From contig QHYE01000077.1 of NCBI GenBank assembly GCA_003224055.1, positions 1 to 64,000 of the forward strand: 64,000 bases of DNA. Direction: 5' to 3'. The DNA is from Acidobacteriota bacterium. GTDB taxonomy: Bacteria; Acidobacteriota; Terriglobia; Acidiferrales; UBA7541. Shown here one piece after another: positions 6,780 through 25,790 of this stretch. The position numbers and the translations under genes are program-made. The first letter of the stretch is position 1. Each line of letters opens with the position of its first letter. A model generated the notes under the pieces. That model saw only the letters and a program-made list of their open reading frames with translations, was not told the origin of the DNA and did not search any database.

Positions 6780-6806
6780 ATGCCGGAGAAAAGGTAAGAA
6801 GGATTT

Positions 6807-8141: not shown

Positions 8142-8172
8142 GACGCAATCGCGCACGAGTGGGGAATTAGAA

Positions 8173-8667
8173 ATGGCGACATCACCGGCGCACCGGGTTT
8201 CCACCGGAGAGCGCCTCAATACCGCAGAGACAACGGGGAAGCTTCAGCAGGCGGTAGCCGCGCGGGGAATCCGCATGACCCGCCAGCGCCGCGTCATTCT
8301 TCAGGTGATGGATGATGCCGAGCAGCACCTGGACGTGGATCAAATTCTTGCCAGGGCGCAGAAGATTGATTCGGACATTCACCTCGTTACGGTGTACCGT
8401 ACGATTGACCTGCTGAAGAAGCAGGGACTCATTGACGAATTGGATCTGCTACATCTTCGCGGGGATCGCCACTATTACGAGACGCACGGTCCGCGCGATC
8501 ACATTCATGTGGCGTGCTTGCGCTGCGGCAAGGTTCGGGAATTCGAAAGCCGCTTGTACGAGCAATTGAAGGAGCAGATCGCGCGCGATTTTCACATGAA
8601 GGTCACCGTGTCGCGCACGGAAGTCGGCGGTTATTGCGCCGACTGCCTCCAGAAAACAAAAGAATAG
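8173..8667 (+). CDS. Fur-family transcriptional regulator
   Basis: A 164-residue metal-dependent repressor. The N-terminal winged helix includes TRQRRVILQVM, a DVDQI segment and LVTVYRTIDLLKKQGL, characteristic of the family. The dimerisation half has the HIHVACLRCGKV metal site with a CxxC and a second CADC pair at the C-terminus, forming the structural zinc site. I placed the start at 8173, with GGGGAATTAG just upstream. The frame is open much further upstream inside rseP, but that part is a shadow. Fur, PerR and Zur cannot be separated safely; it carries both CxxC pairs and a His-rich sensory region. Confidence 0.92.
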   Translation: MATSPAHRVSTGERLNTAETTGKLQQAVAARGIRMTRQRRVILQVMDDAEQHLDVDQILARAQKIDSDIHLVTVYRTIDLLKKQGLIDELDLLHLRGDRHYYETHGPRDHIHVACLRCGKVREFESRLYEQLKEQIARDFHMKVTVSRTEVGGYCADCLQKTKE

Positions 8668-11469: not shown

Positions 11470-12408
11470 ATGACGCGCCCCCGCAAAAAGCAAACAAAGA
11501 ACGGAAAGAATCCGCGGCGCCGCCGGGCTAAACCGGTAAAGCGGGCGCAAGAGACTCCGGGCGAATGGTTTGAAAAGCTCGTGGCCGTGCAGGCTCGGCT
11601 TCGCGCCCCGGGCGGCTGTCCCTGGGATCGCGAACAGACTCACGAATCGCTGCGAACCTATTTGATTGAGGAGGCCTACGAAGTCCTGGAAGCGCTGGAG
11701 AGCAGGAACGACGCCAAGTTCGCGGAGGAGATGGGCGATCTTCTCCTGCAGATCGTATTTCATTCGCAGATGGCGCAGGAGAGGGGTGGTTTTACGATTT
11801 CAGATGTAATCCGCGAAATCCACGACAAGATGATTCGGCGGCATCCCCATGTTTTTGGAGAAACGCGTGCGAAAGATGCAGCGGACGTATTGAGAAACTG
11901 GGAGCAGATCAAAGCCGAGGAACGGCGTTCGAAAGCTAAAAACCCTGTCAATCACTCTGGAAGCAAGTCGGCGAGAGAAGCCTCGCTGCTCGATGGCGTG
12001 TCGCGCGCCCTTCCCGCAACCCTGGAAGGTTTCCAGCTTACGCGCAAAGCCTCGCGCATCGGCTTCGACTGGGAGACTGCCGGAGGCATCTTCGAAAAGA
12101 TGGGCGAGGAGACCAGGGAATTGCAAAATGCTCTGGACGCCCGGGAACAACCGAAAGTTGAGGAGGAGCTCGGAGATTTGCTCTTCGCTGCTGTAAACCT
12201 CGCGCGATTTCTGAAGGTAGACCCGGAGATTGCCCTGAAAAAAGCCAATGAGAAATTCTCTCGAAGATTTCGCTCCATGGAAAAGCTGGCGCGGGAAGGC
12301 GGGCGGGAGTTCAAGAATCTACCGCGACAGGAAATGGAAGCGCTCTGGGATCTCGCCAAGCGGACGGAGCAGAAAATCGAACGGAGTGGGGCGCTAGCCA
12401 AGCGATGA
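11470..12408 (+). CDS. mazG: Nucleoside triphosphate pyrophosphohydrolase MazG
   Basis: MazG hydrolyses (d)NTPs to monophosphates and pyrophosphate, cleaning nucleotide pools and lowering ppGpp-related stress. The 312-residue product starts with a basic tail of about 30 residues, then has the LRAPGGCPWDREQTHESLRTYLIEEAYEV signature segments, EEMGDLLLQIVFH, and a second MazG domain with EEELGDLLFAAVNLAR, so both EExxD-type metal sites are present. It begins a run whose next gene overlaps by ATGA. Confidence 0.95.
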   Translation: MTRPRKKQTKNGKNPRRRRAKPVKRAQETPGEWFEKLVAVQARLRAPGGCPWDREQTHESLRTYLIEEAYEVLEALESRNDAKFAEEMGDLLLQIVFHSQMAQERGGFTISDVIREIHDKMIRRHPHVFGETRAKDAADVLRNWEQIKAEERRSKAKNPVNHSGSKSAREASLLDGVSRALPATLEGFQLTRKASRIGFDWETAGGIFEKMGEETRELQNALDAREQPKVEEELGDLLFAAVNLARFLKVDPEIALKKANEKFSRRFRSMEKLAREGGREFKNLPRQEMEALWDLAKRTEQKIERSGALAKR

Positions 12409-13145
12409 GTTCGGATATCGTTGTCCGCGAATGCGAAAGCCTCGATGAATTTCAACGTTGCGTGGACCTGCAACGCGAAATTTGGGGGGAAGCAGACCTC
12501 GAAGTTGAGCCGGCCACGCTGTTCGTCGTCGCCGCACATACGGGCGGCGAAGTGCTGGGCGCTTTCGATGGCAAGCGTCTCGTGGGTTTCACGCTCGCGG
12601 TCGTCGGACTCCAGGGCGGCGTCCCTTACCTACACTCGCACATGACCGGCGTGCACAGCGAATACCGTGACCGGGGTGTTGGCCGCATACTGAAACTCTT
12701 TCAGCGAACCGAAGCTTTGGGGCGCGGCATCCGGCTCGTACAGTGGACCTTCGATCCTCTCGAGCTCCGCAACGCGCACTTCAATTTGAACAAGCTCGGC
12801 GCGATTTGCCGGAAGTATTGTCCGAACCTGTATGGAGTGACGACGAGCCCGCTTCACAGGGATTTGCCCACGGATCGTTTGCTGGTGGAATGGCATCTGG
12901 ACTCCGCGCGGGTGGTCGCGGCGATCGGTGACCTCGCCAAGGATCCCGTCGAGGCGCCGGCGTTTATCGAATTGCCTCCGGATCTGGAGCGCTGGCAGCG
13001 CGAAGGTTCGCCGGAGGTTGGCAGAGTCCAAGCCCGCGTTCGCGAAGAGTTCGCGAGGTGGTTTGCGAAGGGGTATGCCGCGGTCGGTTTGCGCACCACT
13101 GGGGCGAGCAGGGCCTACCTCCTGACGCCGTGGAGCGACTTCTGA
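12405..13145 (+). CDS. COG3375-type GNAT acyltransferase (possible N-succinyltransferase)
   Basis: A 246-residue protein whose start overlaps the mazG stop (ATGA). It carries the acyl-CoA loop of the GNAT fold (RDRGVGRILKLFQR) and the long C-terminal region (LRNAHFNLNKLGAICRKY and a TDRLLVEWHLDS block) typical of the COG3375 family. In Geobacillus kaustophilus a relative of this family next to N-succinylamino-acid racemase is a succinyl-CoA:D-amino acid N-succinyltransferase. Here the next gene, 32 bases downstream, is an OSBS/NSAR enzyme, so the same chemistry is a reasonable inference. Substrate specificity is not visible. Confidence 0.85.
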   Translation: MSSDIVVRECESLDEFQRCVDLQREIWGEADLEVEPATLFVVAAHTGGEVLGAFDGKRLVGFTLAVVGLQGGVPYLHSHMTGVHSEYRDRGVGRILKLFQRTEALGRGIRLVQWTFDPLELRNAHFNLNKLGAICRKYCPNLYGVTTSPLHRDLPTDRLLVEWHLDSARVVAAIGDLAKDPVEAPAFIELPPDLERWQREGSPEVGRVQARVREEFARWFAKGYAAVGLRTTGASRAYLLTPWSDF

Positions 13146-15278: not shown

Positions 15279-15355
15279 GCGCCCGTAGCTCAGCTGGATA
15301 GAGCATCTGGCTTCGAACCAGAGGGTCGGGAGTTCGAGTCTCTCCGGGCGCGCCA
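15279..15355 (+). tRNA. tRNA-Arg (anticodon TCG)
   Basis: A complete 77-base cloverleaf with encoded CCA. The acceptor arms are GCGCCCG and CGGGCGC with discriminator G. The D arm is in GCTCAGCTGGATAGAGC, the anticodon stem-loop is TCTGG-CTTCGAA-CCAGA with anticodon TCG, and the T arm is GGGAG-TTCGAGT-CTCTC. The 3-prime half from the anticodon stem onward is the left copy of the attachment repeat of the mobile element that follows, so the element uses this gene as its integration site and leaves it intact. Confidence 0.97.
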
Positions 15356-15506
15356 GTTTTATATTCTGCTAAGCGCCGCTGGCCTCCTCGCTGTATCACC
15401 GGACATATGGATAGATCTCGTCAGCGATCCAATAGTTCTCCACAAGAATTGCAAAGAGCGTTCCCATCAACAATAGCGCCCAGCGTCGACGTCTCCAGAC
15501 GGTGCT
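15306..15506 (+). repeat. attL: 201-bp direct repeat, left copy
   Basis: This block is identical base for base to 25025-25225. It begins in the 5-prime strand of the tRNA-Arg anticodon stem (tRNA base 28), covers the rest of the tRNA and continues 151 bases into the 3-prime end of a convergent membrane-protein gene. The first differing base on the left is A here versus G in the right copy; on the right, GGCG here versus AAGA. Confidence 0.95.
15396..15506 (-). pseudogene. 3-prime fragment of the membrane gene duplicated in attL
   Basis: The last 37 codons of the membrane-protein gene found intact at 25115-25510 are repeated here (ending ...NYWIADEIYPYVR). Upstream the frame runs into element DNA, so this is a by-product of the long attachment repeat and not a gene. 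Confidence 0.85.
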
Positions 15507-15560
15507 GGCGCTTAGATAGTCCGCAGTTGCACTTTCGCGGGAAGTGAATCGGAGCCCAAG

Positions 15561-16316
15561 ATGACAACACCTGACGAGCGGTTTGAGAGCGAGCTCGACG
15601 TATTTCGGACGGAGGCAGCGCAGGGCACCCAGTTTTTTTATGCCTACGTCGCGGTGCGTGCCGCGGCTACCGCGCACGAGCCGGTTCTCAAGCTCCTAAA
15701 TCAGTCGGCTCTGTTTTGGAACACCAACTTGGCAGCCCTTCAGACCTCTGCGTTTATAGTTCTCGGCCGCATTTTTGACCAAACCTCACCTCACAACCTT
15801 GACAGGGTTCTTCGTATAGCACGGGACAATCCCCGGATCTTTTCTAGGGTCTCGCTTGGTCGACGGAGACAGGGCAATAAGTCCGAGCCGCCTCCATGGC
15901 TTGCCGAGTTCCTTCGTGCTGCCTACGAACCAACGCCCAAAGACTTCCGCCGCATCCGCGCTCACGTTCGTAAATGGCGCAGGGTCTACGAGAAGAATTA
16001 TCGAGATCTGCGGCACAAAGTGTTTGCGCACAACGTGGTGGACCGTGATGAAACTGCAGCTCTGTTTGGAAGGACCAATATCCGCGAGCTGCAGAGGATG
16101 TTCGTCTTTCTCAATTCGTTACATGAGGCTCTATGGCAATCATTCGTCAACGGGGCGAGGCTTGTCCTTCGCCCGTTACGGTATTCCGTGAAGCGCATGA
16201 GAGCTTTGCCGTCGCCCGGCACGGGGCGCTGGGCAACCCAAGAGCGCATCACTCATGAAGTGACGGAGTTCCTCCTGTCAGCTTCGAGCGTGGCCAACGC
16301 ACCGCTGGGCGGTTAG
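15561..16316 (+). CDS. HEPN/AbiU2-like protein, possible abortive-infection cargo
   Basis: A 251-residue mostly helical protein, the only plus-strand gene in the element. A segment with FWNTN..AL..SAFIVLGRIFDQ followed later by YRDLRHKVFAHN resembles the AbiU2-type HEPN domain. R151 and H157 make the R-x(4-6)-H motif that forms the RNase active site in HEPN toxins. AbiU2 itself is linked to phage abortive infection. Position at the element edge, opposite to the core genes, fits cargo. The family match is by pattern only, and no antitoxin partner is adjacent, so a defence role is inference. Confidence 0.55.
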   Translation: MTTPDERFESELDVFRTEAAQGTQFFYAYVAVRAAATAHEPVLKLLNQSALFWNTNLAALQTSAFIVLGRIFDQTSPHNLDRVLRIARDNPRIFSRVSLGRRRQGNKSEPPPWLAEFLRAAYEPTPKDFRRIRAHVRKWRRVYEKNYRDLRHKVFAHNVVDRDETAALFGRTNIRELQRMFVFLNSLHEALWQSFVNGARLVLRPLRYSVKRMRALPSPGTGRWATQERITHEVTEFLLSASSVANAPLGG

Positions 16317-16344
16317 GCGGTCGTCCATTGATCCAGGAATCGGC

Positions 16345-17127
16345 TCACGCTCCCGCCGGCCGCAGTTTTCCACTGATAGCCAGGGAACGACGGAATTGTT
16401 CTTCGATGAGGCTGCTGCCGCCTGACGCCCCTTTCGTGATGAGGTGGAAAGAGTAGGGCGGACCGATTGTTTCCGGGTGCGATGCTGAAATCTCAGCTGC
16501 GAGCGAAAGCATCGCCTTTGCTACGGCCTGGGGAGTACGGTCTCTCCCTATGAGCTCCAGGAGTTTGTCGCCAGCCGCAATTCCTTCCTCCGAATCCACG
16601 TCTCCAATAATCGCCACTCCGGAGTCGTGCTCCCATTCATCCGAGGAACGGTCCGTGCAGCAAAAAATCCGGTTGCGCACACGCCTCCGTTCGCGATCGT
16701 AGCCGAGCAAATTTAGATTGACCCGATCGGTGCTGTCGAAGAGTTTTGGGCGGGCAGAGCGTGCTCTTAGGAATTTGCTGACCAAGAACCTGTATGCCTT
16801 CCCTGCGGATTTGCCCACTTCCTTGGCGTAGGACAAGGCCGCCGCGTGCACCGTGGGGACGATAATCCCGGCAACCTGGTCGAAGCTCGCCTCGGGGAAT
16901 TTCTCGACATAGCGGCGCACGGCATCATACACAGAGAAATCCAGAAATTTGCTGACCGATGAGGAACCCGCGAGCACGAGACCTGGACTGGCCCGAAGCA
17001 CTTTGAATTTTCTCGCGGTCTCTTTCGGTCTTGCGGCATAGTGGCCATCGGGATGCCGCACGCTCACTCTTCCATCGGAGCACACGATTCCGAAATCTTT
17101 GCTGTGGTAGCTCTGAATCAGGCTCAA
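16345..17127 (-). CDS. Ntn-hydrolase (proteasome-subunit)-like protein of the element
   Basis: A 260-residue protein, last in the leftward capsid operon and starting three bases after the preceding stop. The N-terminus (MSLIQSYHSKDFGIVCSDGR), a later KFKVLRASPGLVLAGSSS and a helix rich in VYDAVRRYVEKF resemble the sandwich fold of proteasome/HslV-type Ntn hydrolases. Ser2 could be the N-terminal nucleophile after Met removal. The assignment is to fold level only. In a capsid operon lacking a recognisable prohead protease, a maturation role is an attractive but untested idea. Confidence 0.5.
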   Translation of the reverse strand: MSLIQSYHSKDFGIVCSDGRVSVRHPDGHYAARPKETARKFKVLRASPGLVLAGSSSVSKFLDFSVYDAVRRYVEKFPEASFDQVAGIIVPTVHAAALSYAKEVGKSAGKAYRFLVSKFLRARSARPKLFDSTDRVNLNLLGYDRERRRVRNRIFCCTDRSSDEWEHDSGVAIIGDVDSEEGIAAGDKLLELIGRDRTPQAVAKAMLSLAAEISASHPETIGPPYSFHLITKGASGGSSLIEEQFRRSLAISGKLRPAGA

Positions 17128-17130
17128 TTC

Positions 17131-17340
17131 TCAATCCTTGAACTGGCGCGAGGTCACGGTGCGGCTGGCGACCTGGTTGGTGAGCGAGGATACGCCGGAA
17201 CCTTTGGAAAACAGTTTGCTGACCGCGCCGAGAACCAGGCTGGCGCCGAGCGAGAGAGCGGTGCTGAGGAGAAACGCGTTCAATCCGCCGGCGGCGAGCG
17301 TTGCCGCTATCCACGATATGACTGGAACAATGAATGGCAT
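17131..17340 (-). CDS. Small membrane or tail-protein-like fragment
   Basis: A 69-residue product with a long hydrophobic N-terminal region (two possible membrane segments, residues 3-23 and 26-44) and a polar tail. It begins one base after the stop of the double zinc-ribbon gene and ends three bases before the Ntn-hydrolase-like gene, so it is probably translated. The layout (hydrophobic start, then SKGSG and a VASRTVTSRQ stretch) recalls the beginning of some phage tail-tip proteins, which would make it a truncated relic. That resemblance is weak. Confidence 0.5.
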   Translation of the reverse strand: MPFIVPVISWIAATLAAGGLNAFLLSTALSLGASLVLGAVSKLFSKGSGVSSLTNQVASRTVTSRQFKD

Positions 17341-17341
17341 C

Positions 17342-18055
17342 TCAAATTTCCTTTCCGGAGGTTTTCCCGCCGGGCCTGGCGCCAGATTTCTGGTCGCCCG
17401 ACTTTTTCGGCTTGAGTCGATCGAAGAGGCTGGGTTTCTCTTCCGCGATCGGGGCCGCTTCGACTTTTGGTTCCTGGCTCAGAAGGCTCACCCGCCCCCC
17501 GGGTGACCTAACGCGTTCGCGGATTTGGTCCAATGGAAAAATATCGGGCGAGGGCATGGGAATTTTGTGATCCCAAGAGACTTCCATCCCGGTGATTCGC
17601 GTGTCGCCCGGCGCCGGCTCGGGAAGCAAAGATAGGCGAGCTGGACTTTGGCAGAGCGGACATGGATCAGCCCACGTGCCCTTGTGCTGGAATTTCTTTT
17701 CGACGGCGCCGCAGCTTTCACGAGAACACCGAATCAGCCAGGTTCCCGACTCCGGCACAATCTCTAGGGTGCGAATGAACGTCCCTTCCGCGGGCGGCGC
17801 CGCCGGCGCGATGGTCTTCTCTTCCATCGGCCGAGACGCCGCAACCGCGGGAGGTTCTACCAGCGCGGGCTCGTGAAGAAATCGTACCCACGCCGGATTT
17901 AGGCAACGCCGGCACGGTGGTGCTGGCTCCCCCTCGCGCAGGCTCAGCTTTTCGACGAAATTGCATCCGTCCTTCATGCAGCGGAGAATCCACACGCCTG
18001 ACGCCGACAATAGTTTGCCGGTGCGAACCGACGCCGGATTTTCTTTGGGTTTCAT
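17342..18055 (-). CDS. Double zinc-ribbon protein of the capsid operon
   Basis: With the start at 18055 (CGGAG upstream) the product has 237 residues; an upstream in-frame ATG at 18097 would add 14. It contains two copies of the same unit, C-x(4)-C...C-x2-C: CMKDGC...PPCRRC and, about 80 residues later, CSRESC...DPCPLC. Both are preceded by a G-W-x-I/L-RC strand, which indicates internal duplication of a zinc ribbon. The C-terminal third is low-complexity and charged (Lys/Gly-rich). It lies between a head-type protein and a small membrane protein. No known family is recognised. Confidence 0.6.
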   Translation of the reverse strand: MKPKENPASVRTGKLLSASGVWILRCMKDGCNFVEKLSLREGEPAPPCRRCLNPAWVRFLHEPALVEPPAVAASRPMEEKTIAPAAPPAEGTFIRTLEIVPESGTWLIRCSRESCGAVEKKFQHKGTWADPCPLCQSPARLSLLPEPAPGDTRITGMEVSWDHKIPMPSPDIFPLDQIRERVRSPGGRVSLLSQEPKVEAAPIAEEKPSLFDRLKPKKSGDQKSGARPGGKTSGKEI

Positions 18056-18166
18056 TCGTGAGGAACTCCGGAGCGCCGGCAGCGCATTGATGCCCATCGC
18101 TGCGCCGCCGCCGGTCCAGCCTGCGCATGCCGTGCGGAGGACGGCACGCGCAAAACCAAAACTTCT

Positions 18167-18580
18167 CTACGGCGTGGGCACCTTGGCCGGATCTGTGAGA
18201 ACCGCAAGCGCCGTCAACAGGGCCGCGGCGGCGTTGCTCGTAGTGGTGATTGTGAGCCTCACAAATCTCTTGCCGCCAATGTACCCGATCCTGAACTGCG
18301 AGCTTGGCGATGCGAATGTGAACGACGCGCCCGCCGGAGTGCCGAGGAGCTGGTCGGCAGGGACCGCCGCGGCGTCCGCAAGCGTCGGTGATTCACCGTG
18401 ATCGATCGTGGTCGTAAAAACGGCCGTTCCCGAAGCGATCGTGCCGCTGGCTATGATCACTTCCAAACTTTCGAAACCCAAGCGGTCAATGATTGAACTC
18501 ACGGTTGCTACGTTCGTTGAAATCGATTGCGGATCGATCGCGCGACGCACGGCGATCTCGTTGTGCAAATCTCGAGCCAT
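18167..18580 (-). CDS. Putative phage head-associated protein
   Basis: A 137-residue protein directly downstream of the capsid gene (73-base gap). Its layout matches a family of small proteins found beside HK97-type capsid genes: an N-terminal helix (MARDLHNEIAVRRAI), IDRLGFESLEVIIASGTI, a variable centre with DQLLGTPAG, and a C-terminal GYIGGKRFVRLTIT block. These are annotated as phage hypothetical or head-completion/decoration-like proteins. A capsid-related role is inferred from family pattern and position. Confidence 0.65.
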   Translation of the reverse strand: MARDLHNEIAVRRAIDPQSISTNVATVSSIIDRLGFESLEVIIASGTIASGTAVFTTTIDHGESPTLADAAAVPADQLLGTPAGASFTFASPSSQFRIGYIGGKRFVRLTITTTSNAAAALLTALAVLTDPAKVPTP

Positions 18581-18652
18581 TTTTTTCTCCTCTTCCGAAA
18601 AACCTCAGGGCTACCCCACCAGGGCAAAAGGCCCAAAATCGCCACTTCGCTT

Positions 18653-20020
18653 CTACGGAATGATTCCGTCGATCACGCAGAAATGCTCGGGGCGCGCGAG
18701 CACGACGTCGGCGCGAAGATAGGCGCGGATCCAAACCTGCAGGGCCCGAAACGCGCCAAAAGATGAGTCACCGCCTACGCGCGTGACTTCGATGTTCAGC
18801 TCCGTGCGCAGGCCGAGTAAAAGCTGGTTAAAATCACCAACGTAGGCCTCGGAGCTCACGTTTGACGAGCCTTTGGTGTTCGTGATCGGAATCTGATTGG
18901 TGATGAGTTTCTGCAAACTCTTGAATGACTCCGGCTGCTCGAGCGCGTCGTTCACAGTCGACTGAAATTTGTCGATGGTGCCCCAGGTGCGCGGCGCGAA
19001 AATCGCCGTTCGAGGAATCCCGTTTTTGGTCATGATCAACTGCATGGCTTGCGAGAACTGATTGAAGGTGGTGGTTGACGTGAACTGCGCCCCGTTCGTC
19101 CCGAGGTCGATCAGCTGCACGCCGCCGGCCAAGCCTAGGGAAGTGTTTTTAATTCCTAGGGGCGACGCCGCACTGCCATCGCCGCGGAGTGCCGCGCGAT
19201 CGAGCTCGAGCGCAAGGACTTTTGCCAGCGAGTTTTTCAAGACTGCGTCCAAATTCGACGCGTCTTCCACCAACTCCACCGAAGCACTGCACAGCGCCAT
19301 CAGCGTTCGCGCGCTGAGCCTGATCAGCCCAAACGTCGCATCCGAAAAGTTTGCCGGTTGATTCTCGACTTTCCAGCCGATTCCGGGATCTGCCGTGAGC
19401 TTGGCGATCGAGAGGGTGCTCTCGTTCATGGGCAAAGTAGTCGCGCCCGCCTGTAGCACCACTGCCTGGTTGCGCGCTAAGTCGATGATGTCGCCAGCAA
19501 GGGGGAAGGGAACCAGGACGCCGCCGAGGACGTCGGAGGATCCGCCGAGAGCACGAAGTTCGGCCTGCGCGTCCCGCCAATTTCCCGTCACTTTCGCTTT
19601 CACGATCCGGCCGAGCGACAACTCGTCGGCGCGAATCCCATCCGGCAGCTCGTCGGTCCTGCCCGTCAAGATCGATTCATCGATCCGGAGGCCTCGGACC
19701 TCGTTTCCTTTTGAATCAATGAAGCGCGGCGCCGGCTCGCGATACTCTTCCCCGATCTGTTCCGCCGGCACTTGTCGGCCATCGCGGCGCTCGAGTTCCT
19801 TGGTGGCATCGGCGAGCCGCTTGCCGCGATCGCCACTTTTGCCGCCGCCGGCGCCATGGATTTCGTTCCGCACCTTGTCGCTCTCGTCCATGTATTTGTC
19901 GAAGTCGGCGCTCTCTTGGGCGGTCATCTCGCGTTTTTCTTTCGCAGCGAGGTCGAAAATCGCGCGGCCCTGGGCCACCAGGGTGTTGCGCTTGGTTTGC
20001 AGCTCGAGCTTGGTTGCCAT
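18653..20020 (-). CDS. HK97-fold phage major capsid protein
   Basis: The 455-residue product starts at 20020 behind AGGAGA; an upstream in-frame ATG at 20128 lies beyond a terminator. The N-terminal ~85 residues are a charged coiled coil (TKRNTLVAQGRAIFDLAAKEKREMTAQE...), like the HK97 delta domain that acts as a scaffold and is cut off during maturation. After a linker comes the capsid core: GGVLVPFPLAGDIIDLAR, GWKVENQPANFSDATFG, LARTLMAL-like strand, VELVEDASNLDAVL and a RAALRGDGSAASPLGI segment, all hallmarks of the family. It is the only recognised virion gene of high certainty in the element. Confidence 0.92.
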   Translation of the reverse strand: MATKLELQTKRNTLVAQGRAIFDLAAKEKREMTAQESADFDKYMDESDKVRNEIHGAGGGKSGDRGKRLADATKELERRDGRQVPAEQIGEEYREPAPRFIDSKGNEVRGLRIDESILTGRTDELPDGIRADELSLGRIVKAKVTGNWRDAQAELRALGGSSDVLGGVLVPFPLAGDIIDLARNQAVVLQAGATTLPMNESTLSIAKLTADPGIGWKVENQPANFSDATFGLIRLSARTLMALCSASVELVEDASNLDAVLKNSLAKVLALELDRAALRGDGSAASPLGIKNTSLGLAGGVQLIDLGTNGAQFTSTTTFNQFSQAMQLIMTKNGIPRTAIFAPRTWGTIDKFQSTVNDALEQPESFKSLQKLITNQIPITNTKGSSNVSSEAYVGDFNQLLLGLRTELNIEVTRVGGDSSFGAFRALQVWIRAYLRADVVLARPEHFCVIDGIIP

Positions 20021-20048
20021 TCTGATTCTCCTGAAATTCGTTTGGGCC

Positions 20049-20079
20049 AAAAAAAAACGCTGGCTGAAAATCGCCAGCG
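20049..20079 (-). terminator. Intrinsic terminator in the leader of the capsid gene
   Basis: Read leftward, a perfect 7-bp stem (CGCTGGC / GCCAGCG) with an 8-base loop is followed immediately by nine T residues. The T-tract ends only 28 bases before the capsid start codon at 20020, and the ribosome-binding site fills much of that space. There is little room for a promoter between them, so upstream transcription reaching the structural genes would have to pass this terminator. Confidence 0.85.
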
Positions 20080-20304
20080 CTCGACTTGGGAGCCCCTCAA
20101 TTTTTTCTTTCCACTTCTGGTTGCCCATAGGGGCGGCCCGCGTTCGGACCCAGGAGGGAAAGCTAGAAACTCTACGATCTTAGGATGCCACTCAGAGTGA
20201 GCACGTCTACTGGAACTGAGGGACAGATTTCGAACACCAGCACTTTCGGAGAGCTCGAGCGCGGACTTGACCTTTTGGCCAGGGGCAGGCCTCGGCCACC
20301 TGTT

Positions 20305-20637
20305 TCACTTCGTCGGATCCGGTTCATGACCCATTTCTCCGTCTTCAGAGGCCTCGGCCGAGAACGTCTCGAACCAGTCCCGCTCTTGCCACATCGCATG
20401 GCCGTGGCGATGCAAATTGACCATCACATCCAACAGCGTCTTGAACACTGGGAGCGGCAAAATTCCCAACCCGCGTTCGACTTCGATGCCCGTATAGGCC
20501 GTCACCCGCAACCAGAACGGGGCGAACATGTCCAGCCAGGTTAGGTACTCGCGGTTCCCGCCATGAATGCGGTTCAACTCTTCCGCCGCGGAGTCCGCCA
20601 GCTTCTGATACTCCTCGTTCGTTGCGGGTTCACTCAT
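20305..20637 (-). CDS. Hypothetical element protein (110 aa)
   Basis: Start taken at 20637 (MSEPATNEEYQK), behind a GAGGAAGAG ribosome-binding site and overlapping the stop of the preceding gene by four bases. The protein is acidic, mostly helical and has a hydrophobic central stretch (WLDMFAPFWLRVTAYTGIEVERGLGILPLPVF). The frame is open further upstream but that extension overlaps two coupled genes. No family is recognised. Confidence 0.6.
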   Translation of the reverse strand: MSEPATNEEYQKLADSAAEELNRIHGGNREYLTWLDMFAPFWLRVTAYTGIEVERGLGILPLPVFKTLLDVMVNLHRHGHAMWQERDWFETFSAEASEDGEMGHEPDPTK

Positions 20638-20822
20638 TTTTTTCTCTTCCTCGGGACGAGTACCGTAACGAATTCGTCGCAGGGGGGGCCCTCCCATAAT
20701 CCTCGGCCGCGCGCGCGCGATTGCGTAGCCGGTATCCGTCGCAAAGGCTGTAGCTTTTTGCACGCCATTGGGTACAAAGGCTTTACCTGCCGCGCCAGGT
20801 TCGTGCGAACGCGCGTGTTCAT
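20634..20822 (-). CDS. Small basic element protein (62 aa)
   Basis: A 62-residue, strongly basic product. Both ends overlap neighbours by four bases (ATGA), which is the main support for translation. It contains two Cys residues well apart and ends in PRKRKK. Nucleic-acid binding is conceivable from charge only. No family is recognised. Confidence 0.45.
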   Translation of the reverse strand: MNTRVRTNLARQVKPLYPMACKKLQPLRRIPATQSRARGRGLWEGPPCDEFVTVLVPRKRKK

Positions 20823-21052
20823 GGTCGTGTTCTTCGCGTGAACCTTGCCTCAATGAACGGTATAAGTCTCCCCTCGGGAATGACAGGAAAGTCTTTCGAT
20901 TCAATGAGTAAGATGAAGGAATGCGTCTTCCGCTCCTCTTCGAGAACTTCGATCACGTTGGTGTCAGCTGGTAATCGTGAACTCCACACTTCATTGCTGC
21001 GCAGAAAAGAGTTCAAGAATTCCCCGGAAATTCTGAGTTTCCGAACACTCAT
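20819..21052 (-). CDS. Hypothetical element protein (77 aa)
   Basis: The start at 21052 (MSVRKLRISGEFLNSFL) overlaps the stop of the upstream gene by ATGA. An in-frame ATG at 21097 would overlap that gene by 49 bases and is less likely. The product alternates predicted strands and helices and contains a VIEVLEEER...SFILLIES core. No family is recognised. Confidence 0.55.
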   Translation of the reverse strand: MSVRKLRISGEFLNSFLRSNEVWSSRLPADTNVIEVLEEERKTHSFILLIESKDFPVIPEGRLIPFIEARFTRRTRP

Positions 21053-21378
21053 TGCGGGTTTGCCTCTCTTTCGCTGCGGTAGCCGATCCATTCCCAATCG
21101 TCGTCATAGAACATGCCAACATAGAGCCCAGGCCGTCCGTATCTTTTCAGATCGATGAGCATCTGAGCTGCGAACCCAAGAGCCTGCGCTTCTTTATAGT
21201 CGCCCCTCTTCCTTGCAGATCTCGAGTCGCGCCGAAGACGCGCGACCGTAGAAGAAATCCAGCCGTTCGCCGTGCGGTGAGGGAATCTATTCGTCTGGGC
21301 TTTCGCGCAAACTTCCCGCGAATCGAATTCCAAGAAACTCTCGTCTTCTTCCCTCGGCGCATCTAGGAGCGCACGCAC
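21049..21378 (-). CDS. Hypothetical element protein (109 aa)
   Basis: First of a chain of four genes coupled by four-base overlaps, starting 24 bases after the replication-initiator stop. The 109-residue product has a charged N-terminus, a basic helix (STVARLRRDSRSARKRGDYKEAQALGFAAQMLIDLKRYG, only described here by its Arg/Lys-rich face) and an aromatic C-terminus (GMFYDDDWEWIGY). No family is recognised. Confidence 0.6.
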   Translation of the reverse strand: MRALLDAPREEDESFLEFDSREVCAKAQTNRFPHRTANGWISSTVARLRRDSRSARKRGDYKEAQALGFAAQMLIDLKRYGRPGLYVGMFYDDDWEWIGYRSEREANPQ

Positions 21379-21401
21379 TGGCCACCTCTCACATGGTTAA
21401 C

Positions 21402-22148
21402 TCACCGATGCCACCGACCAAATGTCTGCCTATATGCGCTGCTCGAATTGCCGGGAGTCGGTGATTCAACGAGAACACGGCGGCCAACCAAAGCCGGCCC
21501 GGGTCTGACGCAGTCTGGACCGACGCGAAAATCCCAATGACAGCGCCATGCATCACGCCCAATGTACCGCCCGATGTAGAAGCCCGCATCTTTCTCCCAC
21601 GGCAAGATCCGATTGAACCCGGCGCCGGTCCACAACATTTCCTGCAAATCTTTCCAGCGGTATTCGAACAGCCCGGACCACGAAAGACCGCAGTGCAAAT
21701 GAAGCCGGCCACCACTTTCGCCGAACTGATGCACGACGAAGAATTCGACCCGGCCATGCACTTCTCGCTCAATCCAGGAAATCATGCGTTCGAAAAAATG
21801 CTGCACGAAATCAGGGAAAGGCTGAGCTTGCTCCATTGGAAAACCGCGAGCCCACGGAAAATCCTGCGTCCGAAAGGTCAACGTCAAGAACCAAAGCCAG
21901 CGACGTGCCAGAGTGCGTCGCCCCAGATCATCGATGAATTCACCAATGCGATCGGAAAAGCAGAGCCGACAAGAACAGGGCGCTCGGTGTTTTCTACGAC
22001 GCAACTTTCGGCACGGAAAGCACGGACAGAAGGCACGCCGCATCGATGTTCGATTGCACAATCTTGGTGCAATGCGTTCGTCGGGATAATTTACGCGCAG
22101 GGTGCCCGCAACTCCTTCAATCGTCGGGCACTTAGCTTTTTTTCCCAT
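21402..22148 (-). CDS. Rolling-circle (HUH) replication initiator, microvirus VP4-like
   Basis: A 248-residue protein with the three Rep motifs in order: motif I FLTLTF (87-92), motif II with HLH (His150, His152) in GGRLHLHCGL, and motif III YIGRYIGRD with Tyr191 and Tyr195. Upstream are Cys pairs (CPCFPC and PCSCRLCF), as in microvirus Rep proteins where a C-x2-C element precedes the HUH domain. Such enzymes nick one strand at an origin and stay bound through the tyrosine, driving rolling-circle replication. This implies that the excised element replicates as a circle through ssDNA. The nick site itself is not identified. The ATG at 22148 lacks a good ribosome-binding site, so the exact start is uncertain. 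Confidence 0.78.
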   Translation of the reverse strand: MGKKAKCPTIEGVAGTLRVNYPDERIAPRLCNRTSMRRAFCPCFPCRKLRRRKHRAPCSCRLCFSDRIGEFIDDLGRRTLARRWLWFLTLTFRTQDFPWARGFPMEQAQPFPDFVQHFFERMISWIEREVHGRVEFFVVHQFGESGGRLHLHCGLSWSGLFEYRWKDLQEMLWTGAGFNRILPWEKDAGFYIGRYIGRDAWRCHWDFRVGPDCVRPGPALVGRRVLVESPTPGNSSSAYRQTFGRWHR

Positions 22149-22185
22149 GCAGTTTCGAGCCGTCGTCCGGGCACACCCCGTGGAA

Positions 22186-22680
22186 TCAAGTATGAGAGCG
22201 AGGAACCCCCACCCCCGCCTCCCCCGCGCAAAACCCCGCGCGGGGGAGGAGCGCGTTTACGTCCCTGACGGCGGCACGGCGCATTCCGTGGGCCAGGTGT
22301 TGCGGTCGTTTTGGAGGCCGACTGCGCGTGTCTGCGTTATCGCGCGTAACTTCGATTTCGAAGTTCGGCCGCGGCGAACCCTTCGTGGTAGGCTTTACCC
22401 CAGTACACGCCAAATGAACGTTGTCCCCGACTAAAAGGCACTGCAGGCCTGCGGCTTGCAGTGCCATCCTGAAACCGGTTAGATTCCCGACCGAAATACG
22501 ATCCACAGACTCGCCTCCCAACTCGACCGGATTCAAGAGATCCAGGACATAGCAAGGCCCGTTCTCGCTTTCGAATGCGCGACAGACCCTGCCAGCGATC
22601 TTCACGCCAGGTTTCCAAAACTCCGCGGAGAGAAAGACGCTGTCGGCATCCTCCGTCCGCCCCTTGAACGTTCTGCTCAT
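22186..22680 (-). CDS. Possible ssDNA-binding protein of the element
   Basis: A 164-residue protein 38 bases upstream of the HUH Rep gene, with AAAGGAGAAAAAA before its start. The first ~115 residues look like a compact strand-rich domain (VKIAGRVCRAFES...CYVLDLL...VEL..., then GDNVHLACTGVKPT...FEIEV), which is suggestive of an OB fold. The remaining C-terminal residues are Arg/Ala-rich and less convincing; a frameshift there is possible. Its pairing with a rolling-circle initiator makes ssDNA binding a sensible guess, nothing more. Confidence 0.5.
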   Translation of the reverse strand: MSRTFKGRTEDADSVFLSAEFWKPGVKIAGRVCRAFESENGPCYVLDLLNPVELGGESVDRISVGNLTGFRMALQAAGLQCLLVGDNVHLACTGVKPTTKGSPRPNFEIEVTRDNADTRSRPPKRPQHLAHGMRRAAVRDVNALLPRAGFCAGEAGVGVPRSHT

Positions 22681-22802
22681 TTTTTTCTCCTTTTACTGAA
22701 GTTTTTGTTTCAAACCTAGGGACACACCTGCAGCTCACTCACTCCGAACGACAATGCGGTCTGTTTCTTGTTCCGCGCATCGCAGTTCTCGGTGTGGAAG
22801 TT

Positions 22803-23117
22803 TCAGAACGACCTTGCGGACCTGGCTGAACGCCGCGGGCTAGAACGTCGATGTATTGCCGGCTTCCGGATCGCGGCCGGCGTTACGGCAGCCTCTTCTA
22901 AAAACTTTAAGAGGTCCGTCATGACGTACCGAACGGAGCCGCCGACTTTTCGGTATCGAAGCCCATAGCGCTTTTTGCATCGCCAGATGGAAAGCGTTTG
23001 AGGTTTAACCCCGAGAACGCGAGCGGCTTGCTCTGTAGTCAAGAGTGTGGGCACGTTGATCGGCGACGTCGCGTTCGGCGCTAGGCTTGCAGACGGGCCT
23101 TGGCTTTTTCTCTCCAT
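22803..23117 (-). CDS. Excisionase/AlpA-like helix-turn-helix protein
   Basis: With the start at 23117 (CAGGAG upstream) the product has 104 residues. The core LLTTEQAARVLGVKPQTLSIWRCKKRYGL...RKVGGSVRY...DLLKFLEEAA is the winged helix of the MerR-like HTH_17/excisionase group. Flanking tails are Ser/Ala/Arg-rich. Such proteins assist element excision or regulate its genes. It is the first gene after the predicted leftward promoter and precedes the replication genes. Confidence 0.78.
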   Translation of the reverse strand: MERKSQGPSASLAPNATSPINVPTLLTTEQAARVLGVKPQTLSIWRCKKRYGLRYRKVGGSVRYVMTDLLKFLEEAAVTPAAIRKPAIHRRSSPRRSARSARSF

Positions 23118-23281
23118 GTTCTGCTCCTGATGACGCGGGCGAATCGTTTCAGGGCGCAGCAATGCAGCAGCCTGCGCCCCCTTATGGCCGGACATCTCTC
23201 GAATTTCACGAGAGCGGGATTAGTGGATTCCTTTACCTTACGGTGGGGAACTGCTTTACGTGGAAAGTGCGAAACGAGGAG

Positions 23282-23311
23282 AGCCTACATCTGCGTCCCC
23301 GACCTTGTCAA
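23282..23311 (-). promoter_or_regulatory. Predicted leftward promoter of the excision/replication operon
   Basis: Reading leftward, a perfect TTGACA (23311-23306) is followed 18 bases later by TAGGCT (23287-23282), in the 237-base gap between the integrase stop and the excisionase-like start. It would drive the excisionase, ssDNA-binding-like and Rep genes. The -10 match is only partial. Confidence 0.4.
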
Positions 23312-23354
23312 CAATTTTTAACCGGAGTAACTGAGGATATCGCTTATTTACTTT

Positions 23355-24554
23355 TTATGTCCGGCCAGGGCGGCCGCTTCCGAGACGCCCCGCACGCATC
23401 GCTTTCGTTGCGGTTTCCATCGCTGCTCGCACCGGGCTTTCCTCGAGCCGAGCATAAATCTGGGTTGCCGCGAGGCTGCGATGCCCTAATGTTTTTCCAA
23501 TCACCGGAAGACTGAACCCTTTGCCCGCCATCCAGGAGCCCATTGTTCGCCGCAGATCGTGAAATCTCAGATCGCTCAAGCCCGCACGCTTTCGGAGCCG
23601 CGCCCACCGTTCCTTCGGATCAATCAGGTGACCGGTCTTGCCGCGCCCCGGGAATACAAATTCGCTCTTCCCATCTTTTGCCTGCCGTTTCTTTAGCATC
23701 TCGATCGCAAACGGCATAAGCGGCACGTGAATGGCCTCCCCGGCCTTCGCCTCTCCTTCTGGGATGGTCCACATTGCGTTCTCGAGATCCACTTGCTCCC
23801 ACCGCATCGCGAGAACATTACCGCGGCGCGCGCCGGTATAAAGTGCGAGGTAGATTAAATCCCGCAGGTCCCGACTCCGCTCGTTCTTCACGGCTTTCAG
23901 GAACGGGAGCATTTCCTCCGCTTGGATGAACCGGTCACGTTTCCGTTCAGGGAATAGTCGAATCCCCAGCACGGGGTTCGGACCGACAAAGGCCTCCCTG
24001 GCGCTTGCCCAATTGAAAAGTGAGCGCAGAAGCTGCATGGCCCTGTTCGACGTATAAGGTCCGCGCTGCCGTTCGATCGCGTGTTGCAATCTCTCCACAT
24101 CGCTTCTCTGGATTTCGTGCAGCTTGCGGTCTTTGAGAGGCGAGAGGCACGCCTTGAAAAACCATCGCGGATTACGTGGGCATTTGTTGCGGACCTCCAC
24201 GTGTTCCTTGAGATAGGTGTCGAAGAGCTCTTGGAGCGTTGGATTGTGTACCAGGGTCCGCCGCGCCCTGGCGGGATTCAACCCTTTAGCGATATCCGAG
24301 TTCAGCGCTTCCGTGCGCCCTCGCGCCTGTTCGACCGTGACATCCGGGAATGGCCCGATGCGAATGCGCTCGGGCCGACCTTCGATCTTCCGATAGAGGA
24401 AAAAGGTTTTTTTTCCTTTAGGAGTCACTGAAAGGCAGAGCCCGCGCGCCACCTCGTCATGATAGTAAGCAGGCTGTCTGCCCGTCGGCGCCGGCTTGGA
24501 CTCCAGGACACGTTTGGTGAAGTTGAATTTTTGCGTTGTTCTGTTTTTGGTCAT
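23355..24554 (-). CDS. int: P4-type tyrosine integrase
   Basis: A 399-residue site-specific recombinase. The N-terminal Arm-DNA-binding (DUF4102) domain is seen in YHDEVARGLCLSVTPKGKKTFF...RIRIGPFPDVTVEQAR; the SAM-like core-binding domain follows around residues 105-195. The catalytic domain has Arg243 (TGARRGN), His332-x-x-Arg335 (HDLRR), His358 (LGH) and the nucleophile Tyr367 (QIYAR), so it should be active. Its position near the right repeat and the use of a tRNA gene as target fit P4-type elements. Its start overlaps the stop of the small upstream gene by four bases. Confidence 0.95.
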   Translation of the reverse strand: MTKNRTTQKFNFTKRVLESKPAPTGRQPAYYHDEVARGLCLSVTPKGKKTFFLYRKIEGRPERIRIGPFPDVTVEQARGRTEALNSDIAKGLNPARARRTLVHNPTLQELFDTYLKEHVEVRNKCPRNPRWFFKACLSPLKDRKLHEIQRSDVERLQHAIERQRGPYTSNRAMQLLRSLFNWASAREAFVGPNPVLGIRLFPERKRDRFIQAEEMLPFLKAVKNERSRDLRDLIYLALYTGARRGNVLAMRWEQVDLENAMWTIPEGEAKAGEAIHVPLMPFAIEMLKKRQAKDGKSEFVFPGRGKTGHLIDPKERWARLRKRAGLSDLRFHDLRRTMGSWMAGKGFSLPVIGKTLGHRSLAATQIYARLEESPVRAAMETATKAMRAGRLGSGRPGRT

Positions 24555-24838
24555 TGATCCTGCCCGGGCAGTTCTTCTTCACGCCGGCGCAGTTCCTTCC
24601 GCAGCCGCGCGACGTCTTCTGCCGCATCCTGGAGGATCTCGGCGAATCCGTAGGCAATGGCTCCGCTCACTGGCTCATTGCCTTCCTTCGTGAGCTCCTC
24701 GAGAAGCAGGGCGACGGACCGAATCTTTTTTTCCAGAGCCAACGGGTCGCCGGGTCTGAGCGTGAATGCTTCGTCTAGAATTTCTTGATCCAGGTCCATT
24801 TTGGGTTCGGTGTTGGGGTTCGGTTCCGCTGCCATCAC
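24551..24838 (-). CDS. Small acidic coiled-coil protein upstream of integrase
   Basis: A 95-residue acidic protein coupled to the integrase gene by a four-base overlap. It is mostly helical (ILDEAFTLRPGDPLALEKKI..., and a C-terminal heptad-like ILQDAAEDVARLRKELRRREEEL). It could be a regulator or cofactor of recombination, but no family is recognised. Confidence 0.6.
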   Translation of the reverse strand: MMAAEPNPNTEPKMDLDQEILDEAFTLRPGDPLALEKKIRSVALLLEELTKEGNEPVSGAIAYGFAEILQDAAEDVARLRKELRRREEELPGQDQ

Positions 24839-24880
24839 TCCTCCAATTGCGCGGACCCTATGCGCGCGAGCCGCCCGCCG

Positions 24881-24944
24881 TTGCTACGAATTTGCTACCT
24901 TTCGCATCAATTTGGCGGAACAGGGGTGAATTCGTCGGGTAGCA
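24881..24944. promoter_or_regulatory. Repeated TGCTAC motifs near attR
   Basis: TTGCTAC occurs at 24881-24887 and again at 24892-24898, extended there to TGCTACC, and its complement GGTAGCA lies at 24938-24944. The three copies sit between the start of the int operon and the right attachment repeat, where arm-type integrase sites or an operator would be expected. Function is inferred from position only. Confidence 0.3.
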
Positions 24945-25024
24945 TTTCTGTTGGAAAGATACGCCAATCGTCAATAATTGTAAACAAATATGAATGGGGA
25001 TGCGCCAGACGGGTTGAATCCCCG

Positions 25025-25225
25025 TCTGGCTTCGAACCAGAGGGTCGGGAGTTCGAGTCTCTCCGGGCGCGCCAGTTTTATATTCTGCTAAGCGCCGCTG
25101 GCCTCCTCGCTGTATCACCGGACATATGGATAGATCTCGTCAGCGATCCAATAGTTCTCCACAAGAATTGCAAAGAGCGTTCCCATCAACAATAGCGCCC
25201 AGCGTCGACGTCTCCAGACGGTGCT
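25025..25225 (+). repeat. attR: 201-bp direct repeat, right copy
   Basis: Identical to 15306-15506. It contains a 5-prime-truncated tRNA-Arg (25025-25074, from the anticodon stem to CCA) that cannot be functional, then the 3-prime end of the intact membrane gene. This shows that the original uninterrupted locus was tRNA-Arg followed by that gene. Confidence 0.95.
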
Positions 25226-25510
25226 AAGAGGTGAGAGCTGCATTGGAATATCCACGAGGTAAGCGGCACAGTAGCAAACATTGGCTAGTAATGCCAGGAT
25301 GGCAAGAAGCAAAAGCGAATGTAACGTCAATTCCGCACGGAAATGGGGCCAAGTTGCTACAAGCCAGACAACAACGACCGCGCCGAGGACAAAGTTATAG
25401 AGAAGGCGACGCGGCTCCCAAAATCGGATCGCATCGACGAGGACCCCTCGAAACGGACCGGATGGCGACTCGCCAAAGCCTTGTAACTGAGTTGGATGTT
25501 CGGTTTCCAT
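25115..25510 (-). CDS. Small membrane protein flanking the integration site
   Basis: A membrane protein of 131 residues if started at METEHPTQ (25510), which has GGGAG upstream; earlier in-frame ATGs at 25525 and 25540 are possible. Three to four hydrophobic segments are visible (FVLGAVVVVWLVATW, LLLLAILALLANVCYCAAYLV, and ALLLMGTLFAILVENYW). Only its 3-prime end is duplicated in attL. Family and function are unknown. Confidence 0.7.
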   Translation of the reverse strand: METEHPTQLQGFGESPSGPFRGVLVDAIRFWEPRRLLYNFVLGAVVVVWLVATWPHFRAELTLHSLLLLAILALLANVCYCAAYLVDIPMQLSPLSTVWRRRRWALLLMGTLFAILVENYWIADEIYPYVR

Positions 25511-25790
25511 ATGGAGGTCTCCCATCGAGGCTGACAGCACTAAGCTACAGCGCTGCTTGCTATTGTCAAGTGCTTTTCAAGGCAAAGTGGATTCCATGCG
25601 ATTCACCTCGACGTATAACGCGCAAATGGGTAGCGAACAGCAGGCCTCCGGAGCGACTCGCAGAGCAAAGCCCCGGCCGCCGCGTAAGCCTCGTGGCGGT
25701 AGCGCGAATTTTAGTTTGATGGAAGAATAACGCCCGAACATCCATTACAGCGTTTCTATAGCGGGGCATGGCGTGGGTGGGAGGAGCCAA

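Follow-up and report, generated by a model that had tools for sequence, protein, structure and literature searches.

The window analysed here is a stretch of 64,000 nucleotides from an Acidobacteriota genome (assembly GCA_003224055.1, contig QHYE01000077.1, positions 1 to 64,000). It holds an integrated element with a gene for an HK97-fold major capsid protein (MCP), and this element is probably a helper-dependent phage satellite. The initial annotation described a tRNA-integrated unit of 9,719 bp with perfect direct repeats and an integrase, and this description is borne out. The repeats are 201 nt long, 100% identical (15306-15506 and 25025-25225) and spaced 9,719 bp apart. The left copy starts within an intact tRNA-Arg(tcg) gene. 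Beyond the tRNA, the repeat extends into the 3' end of a small adjacent gene, and the open reading frames (ORFs) 15396-15677 and 25115-25540 have a common C-terminus. A perfect attachment-site (att) repeat of this length suggests a recent insertion, or an earlier stay in a near-identical site. We did not find an empty site (attB): in five genomes, the relatives of the peptidase gene on the right flank do not lie beside tRNA-Arg. The borders and the genes that matter most for the argument are the following.

15279..15355, plus strand: tRNA-Arg(tcg) (ARAGORN), intact on the left side, the integration site
15306..15506, plus strand: attL copy of the 201-nt repeat, with the 3' part of the tRNA and the end of the neighbouring host gene
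25025..25225, plus strand: attR copy of the 201-nt repeat, with the 3' part of the tRNA behind a different 5' sequence
23355..24554, minus strand: tyrosine integrase (PF00589 1.6e-28, PF13356 3.7e-14)
22173..22190, minus strand: candidate origin motif CTTGATTCCACGGGGTGT, 24 nt upstream of Rep
21402..22148, minus strand: HUH-type replication initiator (Rep; PF23343 5.4e-8; HLH and YxxxY motifs)
20305..20637, minus strand: 110-aa protein upstream of the MCP (homolog at L123:11206-11511, phmmer 6.9e-17; no family match)
18653..20128, minus strand: HK97-fold MCP with an N-terminal scaffold-like helical domain (PF05065, phrog_10, AlphaFold2)
18167..18580, minus strand: probable capsid decoration protein (phrog_5707 1.3e-21; 74% identical in the sister locus L123)
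17342..18097, minus strand: cysteine-motif protein, motif seen by eye (homolog at L123:8487-8972, phmmer 3.5e-14)

Most genes lie on the minus strand. Their order is 95-aa protein, integrase, AlpA-like helix-turn-helix protein, 164-aa protein, Rep, three small proteins and MCP, followed by the decoration-type protein, the cysteine-motif protein, a 69-aa hydrophobic protein and a 260-aa ORF. A HEPN/AbiU2-like gene on the plus strand adjoins attL.

The capsid protein was annotated as a full-length HK97-type MCP with a scaffold-like N-terminus, and both profiles and model agree. The protein has 491 aa and matches PF05065 (8.5e-30, residues 202-487) and phrog_10 (3.1e-33, residues 36-487); its start may instead lie at 20020. 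An AlphaFold2 model from a 17-row alignment (predicted local distance difference test, pLDDT, 81) shows a helical N-terminal domain and then the capsid fold. Compared with the PDB, the model matches the capsids of phage D3, a gene transfer agent (GTA), R4C and HK97, among others, with E-values down to 7e-16 and TM-scores, normalised by target length, of about 0.6-0.78. The decoration-type protein has matches in 6 of 50,697 phage records at E<=0.01, and these directly follow the MCP in both tailed-phage records that we opened. The 110-aa protein upstream of the MCP is a candidate assembly or packaging factor. It is part of a 199-aa ORF that begins at 20904, and its true start is most likely the ATG at 20637, behind a strong ribosome-binding repeat. 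Three near-identical 18-nt repeats of this kind, each holding a start codon and a ribosome-binding site, lie about 2 kb apart (18578-18595, 20635-20652 and 22678-22695) and precede the decoration, 110-aa and 164-aa genes.

This capsid cassette stands without the rest of a virion. As initially annotated, no large terminase subunit (TerL), portal, protease or tail gene was recognised in the element by family scans, a bait search and ORF size. Its sole ORFs of at least 280 aa are the MCP and the integrase. The element thus lacks space for a TerL or portal of usual size, and ORF size rules out that one is hidden among the other proteins. Family scans of the element's proteins also gave no match to microvirus major capsid (VP1) or pilot families and no recognised lysis or entry gene.

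Is such an element a solitary case? A search of 396 genomes of the phylum gave 12 genomes with an MCP match at E<=1e-5. Half of these loci (the window, L017, L018, L019, L020 and L026) belong to elements of 8.4-10.3 kb with borders at a tRNA. The remaining six (L021-L025 and L027) are loci that read as tailed prophages, or a 3-kb contig, as judged from their ORFs by eye. Single-protein scans of viral contigs gave no relatives. A query built from an alignment of three MCPs (A2) yielded 55 loci from IMG/VR, and 13 from a collection of genomes from 84,980 species. Eight of these 13 (L083-L088, L091 and L092) have direct repeats at their borders, 8.6-10.0 kb apart; in seven the repeats lie at a tRNA gene, and L088 has a 22-nt repeat and no tRNA. 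Besides its tRNA pair, L085 shows a longer non-tRNA one (8,405 bp), and the repeat of L092 has a third copy further out; for both loci we used the tRNA pairs. Among the remaining five, L090 resembles the capsid-forming phage-inducible chromosomal islands (cfPICIs), L095 reads as a tailed prophage, and L089, L093 and L094 have no definable bounds. By eye, the L093 relative, from a Chloroflexota metagenome-assembled genome (MAG), carries a serine-type recombinase (L093:2015-3301) instead of a tyrosine integrase and appears to be inserted in a YifB/ComM-type ATPase gene, whose halves lie at 1108-2112 and 12199-12939. In IMG/VR, L028 has a 127-nt end repeat, a length of 9,103 bp and an HK97 capsid without TerL or portal; because of its end repeats it is probably circular. 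L029, also with an end repeat and probably a 9,998-bp circle, is of similar size but carries its HK97 capsid together with TerL, portal and protease.

In total, 16 MCP loci lack both TerL and portal: the window element and 15 further ones, including a sister from the same genus, L123. Direct repeats bound 14 of the 16, and 13 lie at tRNA genes. An integrase is present in 15, L028 being the one in which none was seen. In length the 14 repeat-bounded elements range over 8,407-10,299 bp, with a mean of 9,286 bp and a standard deviation of 574 bp (6% of the mean). So narrow a size class suggests a packaging limit. In a capsid-size model, 8.94 kb corresponds to a triangulation number (T) of about 2.49, and 11.78 kb to T=3 with a lower 95% limit of 8.1 kb (PMC7762592). 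The replication genes vary among the elements: a primase/helicase-type cluster links 9 of the 17 elements compared. Two Streptomyces elements, L088 (S. fulvorobeus NBRC 15897) and L091 (S. anulatus NRRL B-2873), have in common an MCP (81%) and a large replication-type protein (74%) and lack the same genes.

The lack of portal and TerL in these loci rests on profile searches, a bait search and ORF size; two family tallies, limited to 25 of 119 and 25 of 41 families, do not enter into it. Across 37 genomes or records, portal PF04860 was found in 19 and TerL PF03354 in 17. None of the 15 portal-less loci included in these searches has a match inside the element (0/15), and 11 of the 15 have none anywhere in the genome or record. 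The matches that accompany L017 (TerL), L087, L088 and L091 are on other contigs or far away. Baits of 8 TerL and 9 portal sequences (E<=0.01) found nothing in the 15 loci, nor in L089, L093 and L094; the matches in L029 and L090 are baits finding themselves and give no independent positive control. One TerL match in the L093 genome might have belonged to this locus, but the matching stretch, when translated, contains none. In L123 the ORFs of at least 280 aa are the integrase, the MCP, a tape-measure protein, a 286-aa protein and a 333-aa frame that runs antisense to the tape-measure gene. Tallies from genome profiles, including the absences of portal and TerL, are lower bounds, because a PF23343 search over the 396 genomes missed the window's own Rep, which a direct scan detects.

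Some relatives carry further packaging genes. A small terminase is strong in L017, L087 and L028 (phrog_83 2.5e-21 or better) and weak in L019, L085 and L026 (E 0.003-0.01), as would be predicted for elements that divert the motor of a helper. An HNH gene is present in L083 and L028, and a protease in L020 and the unbounded L089. L092 encodes a Dit-like protein (L092:11289-12617, phrog_33 2.8e-5), and both L123 and L092 may be satellites that carry single tail genes.

We placed the capsids in a tree of 49 rows (IQ-TREE, LG+C20+F+G4, posterior mean site frequencies), in which published cfPICI capsids were not among the rows. The window MCP falls in a clade of 19 rows with support 100/99. The clade holds 13 portal-less loci, three cfPICI-like rows and three loci left unassigned, and all 27 sampled phage, prophage or viral-contig rows fall outside it. 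A quick tree of 90 rows gives the same clade at 99. L019 and L020 join it at 95/90, or at 89/93 once Clostridioides difficile plasmids are added. L026 is an independent case outside it. The initial annotation had looked to related prophages with flanking terminase, portal and tail genes as the evidence that could overturn it: the MCP clade as sampled contains none, but it does include three cfPICI-like rows with TerL and portal, and the same-genus sister has a tape measure. As portal-less and cfPICI-like rows are intermixed, the order in which head genes were gained or lost cannot be inferred.

The clade spans seven named phyla (Acidobacteriota, Bacillota, Chloroflexota, Balneolota, Actinomycetota, Pseudomonadota and Thermodesulfobacteriota), with the caveat that several members are MAG contigs and may include binning errors. 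Identity alone does not separate clade members from phage MCPs. The window MCP shares 30-46% identity with clade members outside its genus (L017 39%, L018 35%). Among phage records it has 26 matches, none above 31% identity (best score 76 bits, coverage up to 68%). The best-scoring MCP loci listed reach 170-353 bits with phmmer. Queries with the L088 and L018 MCPs gave identities of at most 28% in the best 8 of 246 and of 250 phage rows, respectively. Against 72,556 plasmid records the window MCP has 136 matches, 112 in Klebsiella and 16 in C. difficile. Two circular C. difficile plasmids (L162 and L163; pCD-ISS1 of 7,991 bp and a plasmid of 8,329 bp) have MCPs in the same clade, then of 21 rows and again at 100/99. 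A further record of 15,764 bp, NZ_CP149739, has two MCP places and may be a dimer.

The capsid cassette recurs in L123, the sister from the same genus. It keeps homologs of the 110-aa protein, the MCP (61%), the decoration protein and the cysteine-motif protein in the same order. It also has homologs of the AlpA-like protein, the 95-aa protein and, distantly, the integrase, with the last two swapped in order. Where the window element has the 69-aa and 260-aa ORFs, L123 encodes a 650-aa tape-measure protein (6531-8483; phrog_8462 5.7e-32). Ratios of nonsynonymous to synonymous differences (pN/pS) between the two are 0.36 for the MCP, 0.31 for the decoration protein, 0.54 for the 110-aa protein and 0.64 for the cysteine-motif protein. 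For Rep the ratio is 0.23-0.27 against its relatives in the loci L125 and L126 (0.23 against L125). All these values are rough, since synonymous sites are near saturation in most comparisons. Between the Streptomyces elements the MCP has a dN/dS of 0.28. At the level of sequence, these are signs of purifying selection on MCP and Rep. In-frame stops occur in the capsid alignments of L017 (one TAG) and L123 (one TGA, one TAA); these alignments run 9 and 33 nt, respectively, past the start codons, and the frames are open for 443 and 455 codons.

The initial annotation saw an HUH-type Rep related to microviruses, and motifs and profile agree with it. In a tblastn search at E<=0.1, 33 of 50,697 phage records match Rep; the best 30 of the 33 are all 4.4-5.8 kb long with 23-27% identity, and the three that we opened are Microviridae. 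Aligned to the Microviridae initiators, Rep keeps HLH (H150, H152) and Y191xxxY195. These motifs support the HUH-type assignment; an AlphaFold2 model from the single sequence is too poor (pLDDT 43.9) to show the fold. A tblastn search at the same threshold found no match among 72,556 plasmid records, and on this basis we reject a plasmid source for Rep.

Rep is present in 3 of 151 related genomes: its own, G455 (70%) and G492 (67%). The two Rep relatives (L125 at 70% and L126 at 67%) lie beside a recombinase or integrase (serine type in L125, tyrosine type in L126) and a CHC2 zinc-finger protein, and neither locus has a capsid match. In L126, 24-nt repeats form a pair at tRNA-Leu with a spacing of 6,367 bp. 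Conversely, Rep was not found in any of the MCP loci L017-L095, nor in L123. The nearest relatives of Rep thus lie in capsid-less integrative elements, and we reject a microvirus origin of the element. The proposal that the element joins a microvirus with a tailed phage falls with it, also because phage P2 has an initiator with HWH and YIAKY. The element is rather a modular mosaic of satellite parts, because L123 keeps the cassette without Rep, and Rep and its upstream motif recur in capsid-less elements. By eye, a Rep-like locus in G171 (L106:9392-17775) encodes a P-loop ATPase-like protein and several small hydrophobic proteins, and may be a tailless provirus.

The motif upstream of Rep, referred to as the CTTGATTCC motif, occurs once in the window with 0 occurrences expected. 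All three Rep genomes have a near-identical stretch, CTTGATTCCAC(G/A)GGGTG, upstream of Rep. The first 17 nt of the motif occur in 3 of 151 genomes, once in each, and these are the three that have Rep; the reversed control occurs in none. Confined to the Rep genomes in this way, the motif is strongly indicated as a Rep-linked origin, at which Rep would nick. The motif begins with CTTGAT, as the nick region of phiX174 does.

The rest of the element consists of small genes and a distal region next to attL.

24551..24838, minus strand: 95-aa protein (homolog in L123, phmmer 2.9e-9)
22803..23195, minus strand: AlpA-like helix-turn-helix regulator or excisionase (HTH_17 2.3e-8; homolog in L123)
22186..22680, minus strand: 164-aa protein upstream of Rep, no significant family match and no phage match
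21049..21378, minus strand: small protein, an ORF with no significant family match
20819..21097, minus strand: small protein (phrog_20473 2.4e-5)
17131..17340, minus strand: 69-aa hydrophobic protein (phrog_32, tail-assembly-like, E=0.033, not significant)
16345..17127, minus strand: 260-aa ORF of doubtful function, with an antisense host-gene fragment inside and no phage match
15561..16316, plus strand: HEPN/AbiU2-like protein (PF18734 2e-21)

The AbiU2-like gene is possible anti-phage cargo; no PADLOC model matched it, so it is not a catalogued defence gene. The 260-aa ORF had looked by eye like an Ntn-hydrolase, and we reject this impression, as the ORF has no profile support, no phage match and an antisense host fragment. 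This fragment (about 16727-16840, 38 codons aligned) is a decayed, stop-containing piece of an oxalate-decarboxylase-like host gene, of which open copies exist in related genomes (L124, L127). Hence the distal end of the element appears less constrained, and the earlier argument that open frames indicate function fails for this ORF.

How does the element compare with known systems? Like a cfPICI, it is an integrative satellite with an integrase, an AlpA-like regulator, a replicon and its own HK97 capsid, and cfPICI-like loci with TerL, portal and protease (L029 and the near-identical L030, and L090) share its MCP clade. Published cfPICIs are described with genes for MCP, protease, portal, connectors, both terminase subunits and HNH (PMC10690885). 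The element was searched for portal, TerL and protease and none was found, so it falls outside the cfPICI group as described there; its replicon, too, differs in being HUH-type. By analogy, it would work like a cfPICI that hands more of the head to the helper. The other precedent is Ccm of SaPIbov5, a cos-type Staphylococcus aureus pathogenicity island (SaPI). Ccm is an MCP homolog with 24% identity to the helper protein; it takes the pentamers and gives T=4 shells, and SaPIbov5, without its own portal or TerL, depends on its helper for portal and shell protein (PMC8569155). In that account Ccm contributes nothing but the pentamers of a mixed shell (PMC8569155), whereas the window MCP clade occupies satellite-type loci over seven named phyla and some members add a decoration-type protein. 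The C. difficile plasmids of the pCD-ISS1 type are circles of 7,991 and 8,329 bp with a same-clade MCP, and neither portal nor TerL was found by bait search and ORF size. They encode an 869-aa helicase-type protein, and one has HNH. They differ from the window element in that they are episomal, annotated as plasmids, have a helicase-type replicon and show no integrase among their listed genes.

The replication side has its own parallels. L125 and L126 share Rep, the upstream motif and the bacterial family with the window element, but have no capsid gene and carry the CHC2 protein near Rep. Microviridae share the Rep motifs of their VP4 initiator at a remote 23-27% identity, whereas the window element is integrative and has a tailed-phage-type capsid. 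Phage P2 is a complete tailed phage of 33.6 kb. Its initiator A, annotated as nicking the origin, has HWH (399-401) and then YIAKY (450-454), and its capsid has the HK97 fold. An HUH-type initiator beside a tailed-phage capsid is hence not new in itself. A limited literature search, which is weak evidence of absence, gave no description of an MCP satellite without portal and TerL other than the SaPI Ccm case, nor of an HUH-Rep satellite with an HK97 capsid.

The initial suggestion of a capsid-forming satellite with rolling-circle replication thus stands as the best-supported reading once the microvirus/tailed-phage chimera is dropped. On infection or induction by a tailed helper phage, the element would excise. 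Rep would nick the origin and drive rolling-circle replication. The satellite MCP and decoration protein would form a small shell (about T=3 class, 9-10 kb) around a helper portal, and the helper's protease, terminase and tail would complete the particle. The role of the AbiU2-like gene may be to protect the cell or to tune the helper. Because the element's own genome (95.6% complete) has no match to PF04860 or PF03354, an outside source or other families would have to supply the helper. Several points weigh against this reading. The element is not known to be excised as a circle, to form particles, to be induced or to have a helper, and one portal and one TerL profile found no resident helper in its genome. 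Small terminase and HNH were not recognised in it; a very divergent small terminase may still be present. The relatives were collected by MCP similarity, so all of them have an MCP by design of the search, and repeats more than about 20 kb apart would have escaped notice. No repeats or tRNA were detected around L123, and because L123 has a tape-measure gene where the window element has its 69-aa and 260-aa ORFs, the latter element may have lost a tail gene. The L026 MCP is nested among tailed prophages. Finally, the chimeric ORF in the distal region contains debris of a host gene.

The last three of these observations would also suit a decayed prophage, that is, a tailed prophage that shed its packaging and tail genes and retained the capsid by chance. 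The initial annotation kept this as the conservative alternative, and we now consider it improbable: elements of similar size with the same omissions recur in many hosts, the MCP clade contains no sampled tailed phages, MCP and Rep show signs of purifying selection, the two Streptomyces elements remain alike in MCP, replication-type protein and missing genes, and the perfect att repeats suggest recent movement. A more serious competitor, though still rather unlikely, is that the satellite MCP modifies assembly, either as a Ccm-like part of a mixed helper shell that thereby shrinks the helper capsid, or by poisoning helper assembly. Ccm sets the precedent (PMC8569155), and the elements likewise have neither portal nor TerL. 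A decoration-type protein in the window element, L123 and L017 (weaker in L087) suggests an own lattice instead, cfPICI-like rows lie within the same MCP clade, and the sizes of 8.4-10.3 kb stay short of the 17.98 kb that the model of PMC7762592 gives as the T=4 average. We favour an all-satellite, cfPICI-like shell over a mixed one because the element carries the matching decoration protein. Very improbable, finally, is an autonomous mini-virus that packages itself by a portal-free route, perhaps as rolling-circle single-stranded DNA. It would account for an HUH-type Rep and a capsid in one element and for the lack of a resident helper by two profiles. Yet 9 of the 17 elements compared have, in place of Rep, a shared protein of the primase/helicase type, and packaging genes occur in some relatives (small terminase or HNH, and even TerL and portal); this fits double-stranded DNA packaged by a motor. 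The lysis and entry genes of a virus were not recognised in the element.

Beyond the single element, a family of portal-less capsid satellites appears to be widespread and poorly recognised. We put forward, at roughly even confidence, that the window MCP is a member of an old lineage of HK97 capsids found only in phage satellites, in at least seven phyla, with shells of about T=3 for 8-10 kb. Its bearers would form a continuum, from full head modules (cfPICI-like) through small terminase plus capsid to elements that own a capsid alone and take portal, motor and tail from elsewhere. They would also swap replicons including the HUH unit. The capsid-coding satellites in the parts of the literature consulted own either a whole head (cfPICI, PMC10690885) or one shell modifier (Ccm, PMC8569155). 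A broad class with its own capsid lineage and neither portal nor motor would reveal how small a share of the virion a satellite must bring itself. The docking of a foreign MCP on a helper portal would become testable in ordinary hosts such as Streptomyces, and the narrow genome-size class would be a place to seek T=3 HK97 shells. Cryptic capsid-bearing plasmids of about 8 kb and small 'tailed phage' contigs would be reread as satellites. If true, such satellites, and not small tailed phages, could explain part of the missing small HK97 capsids.

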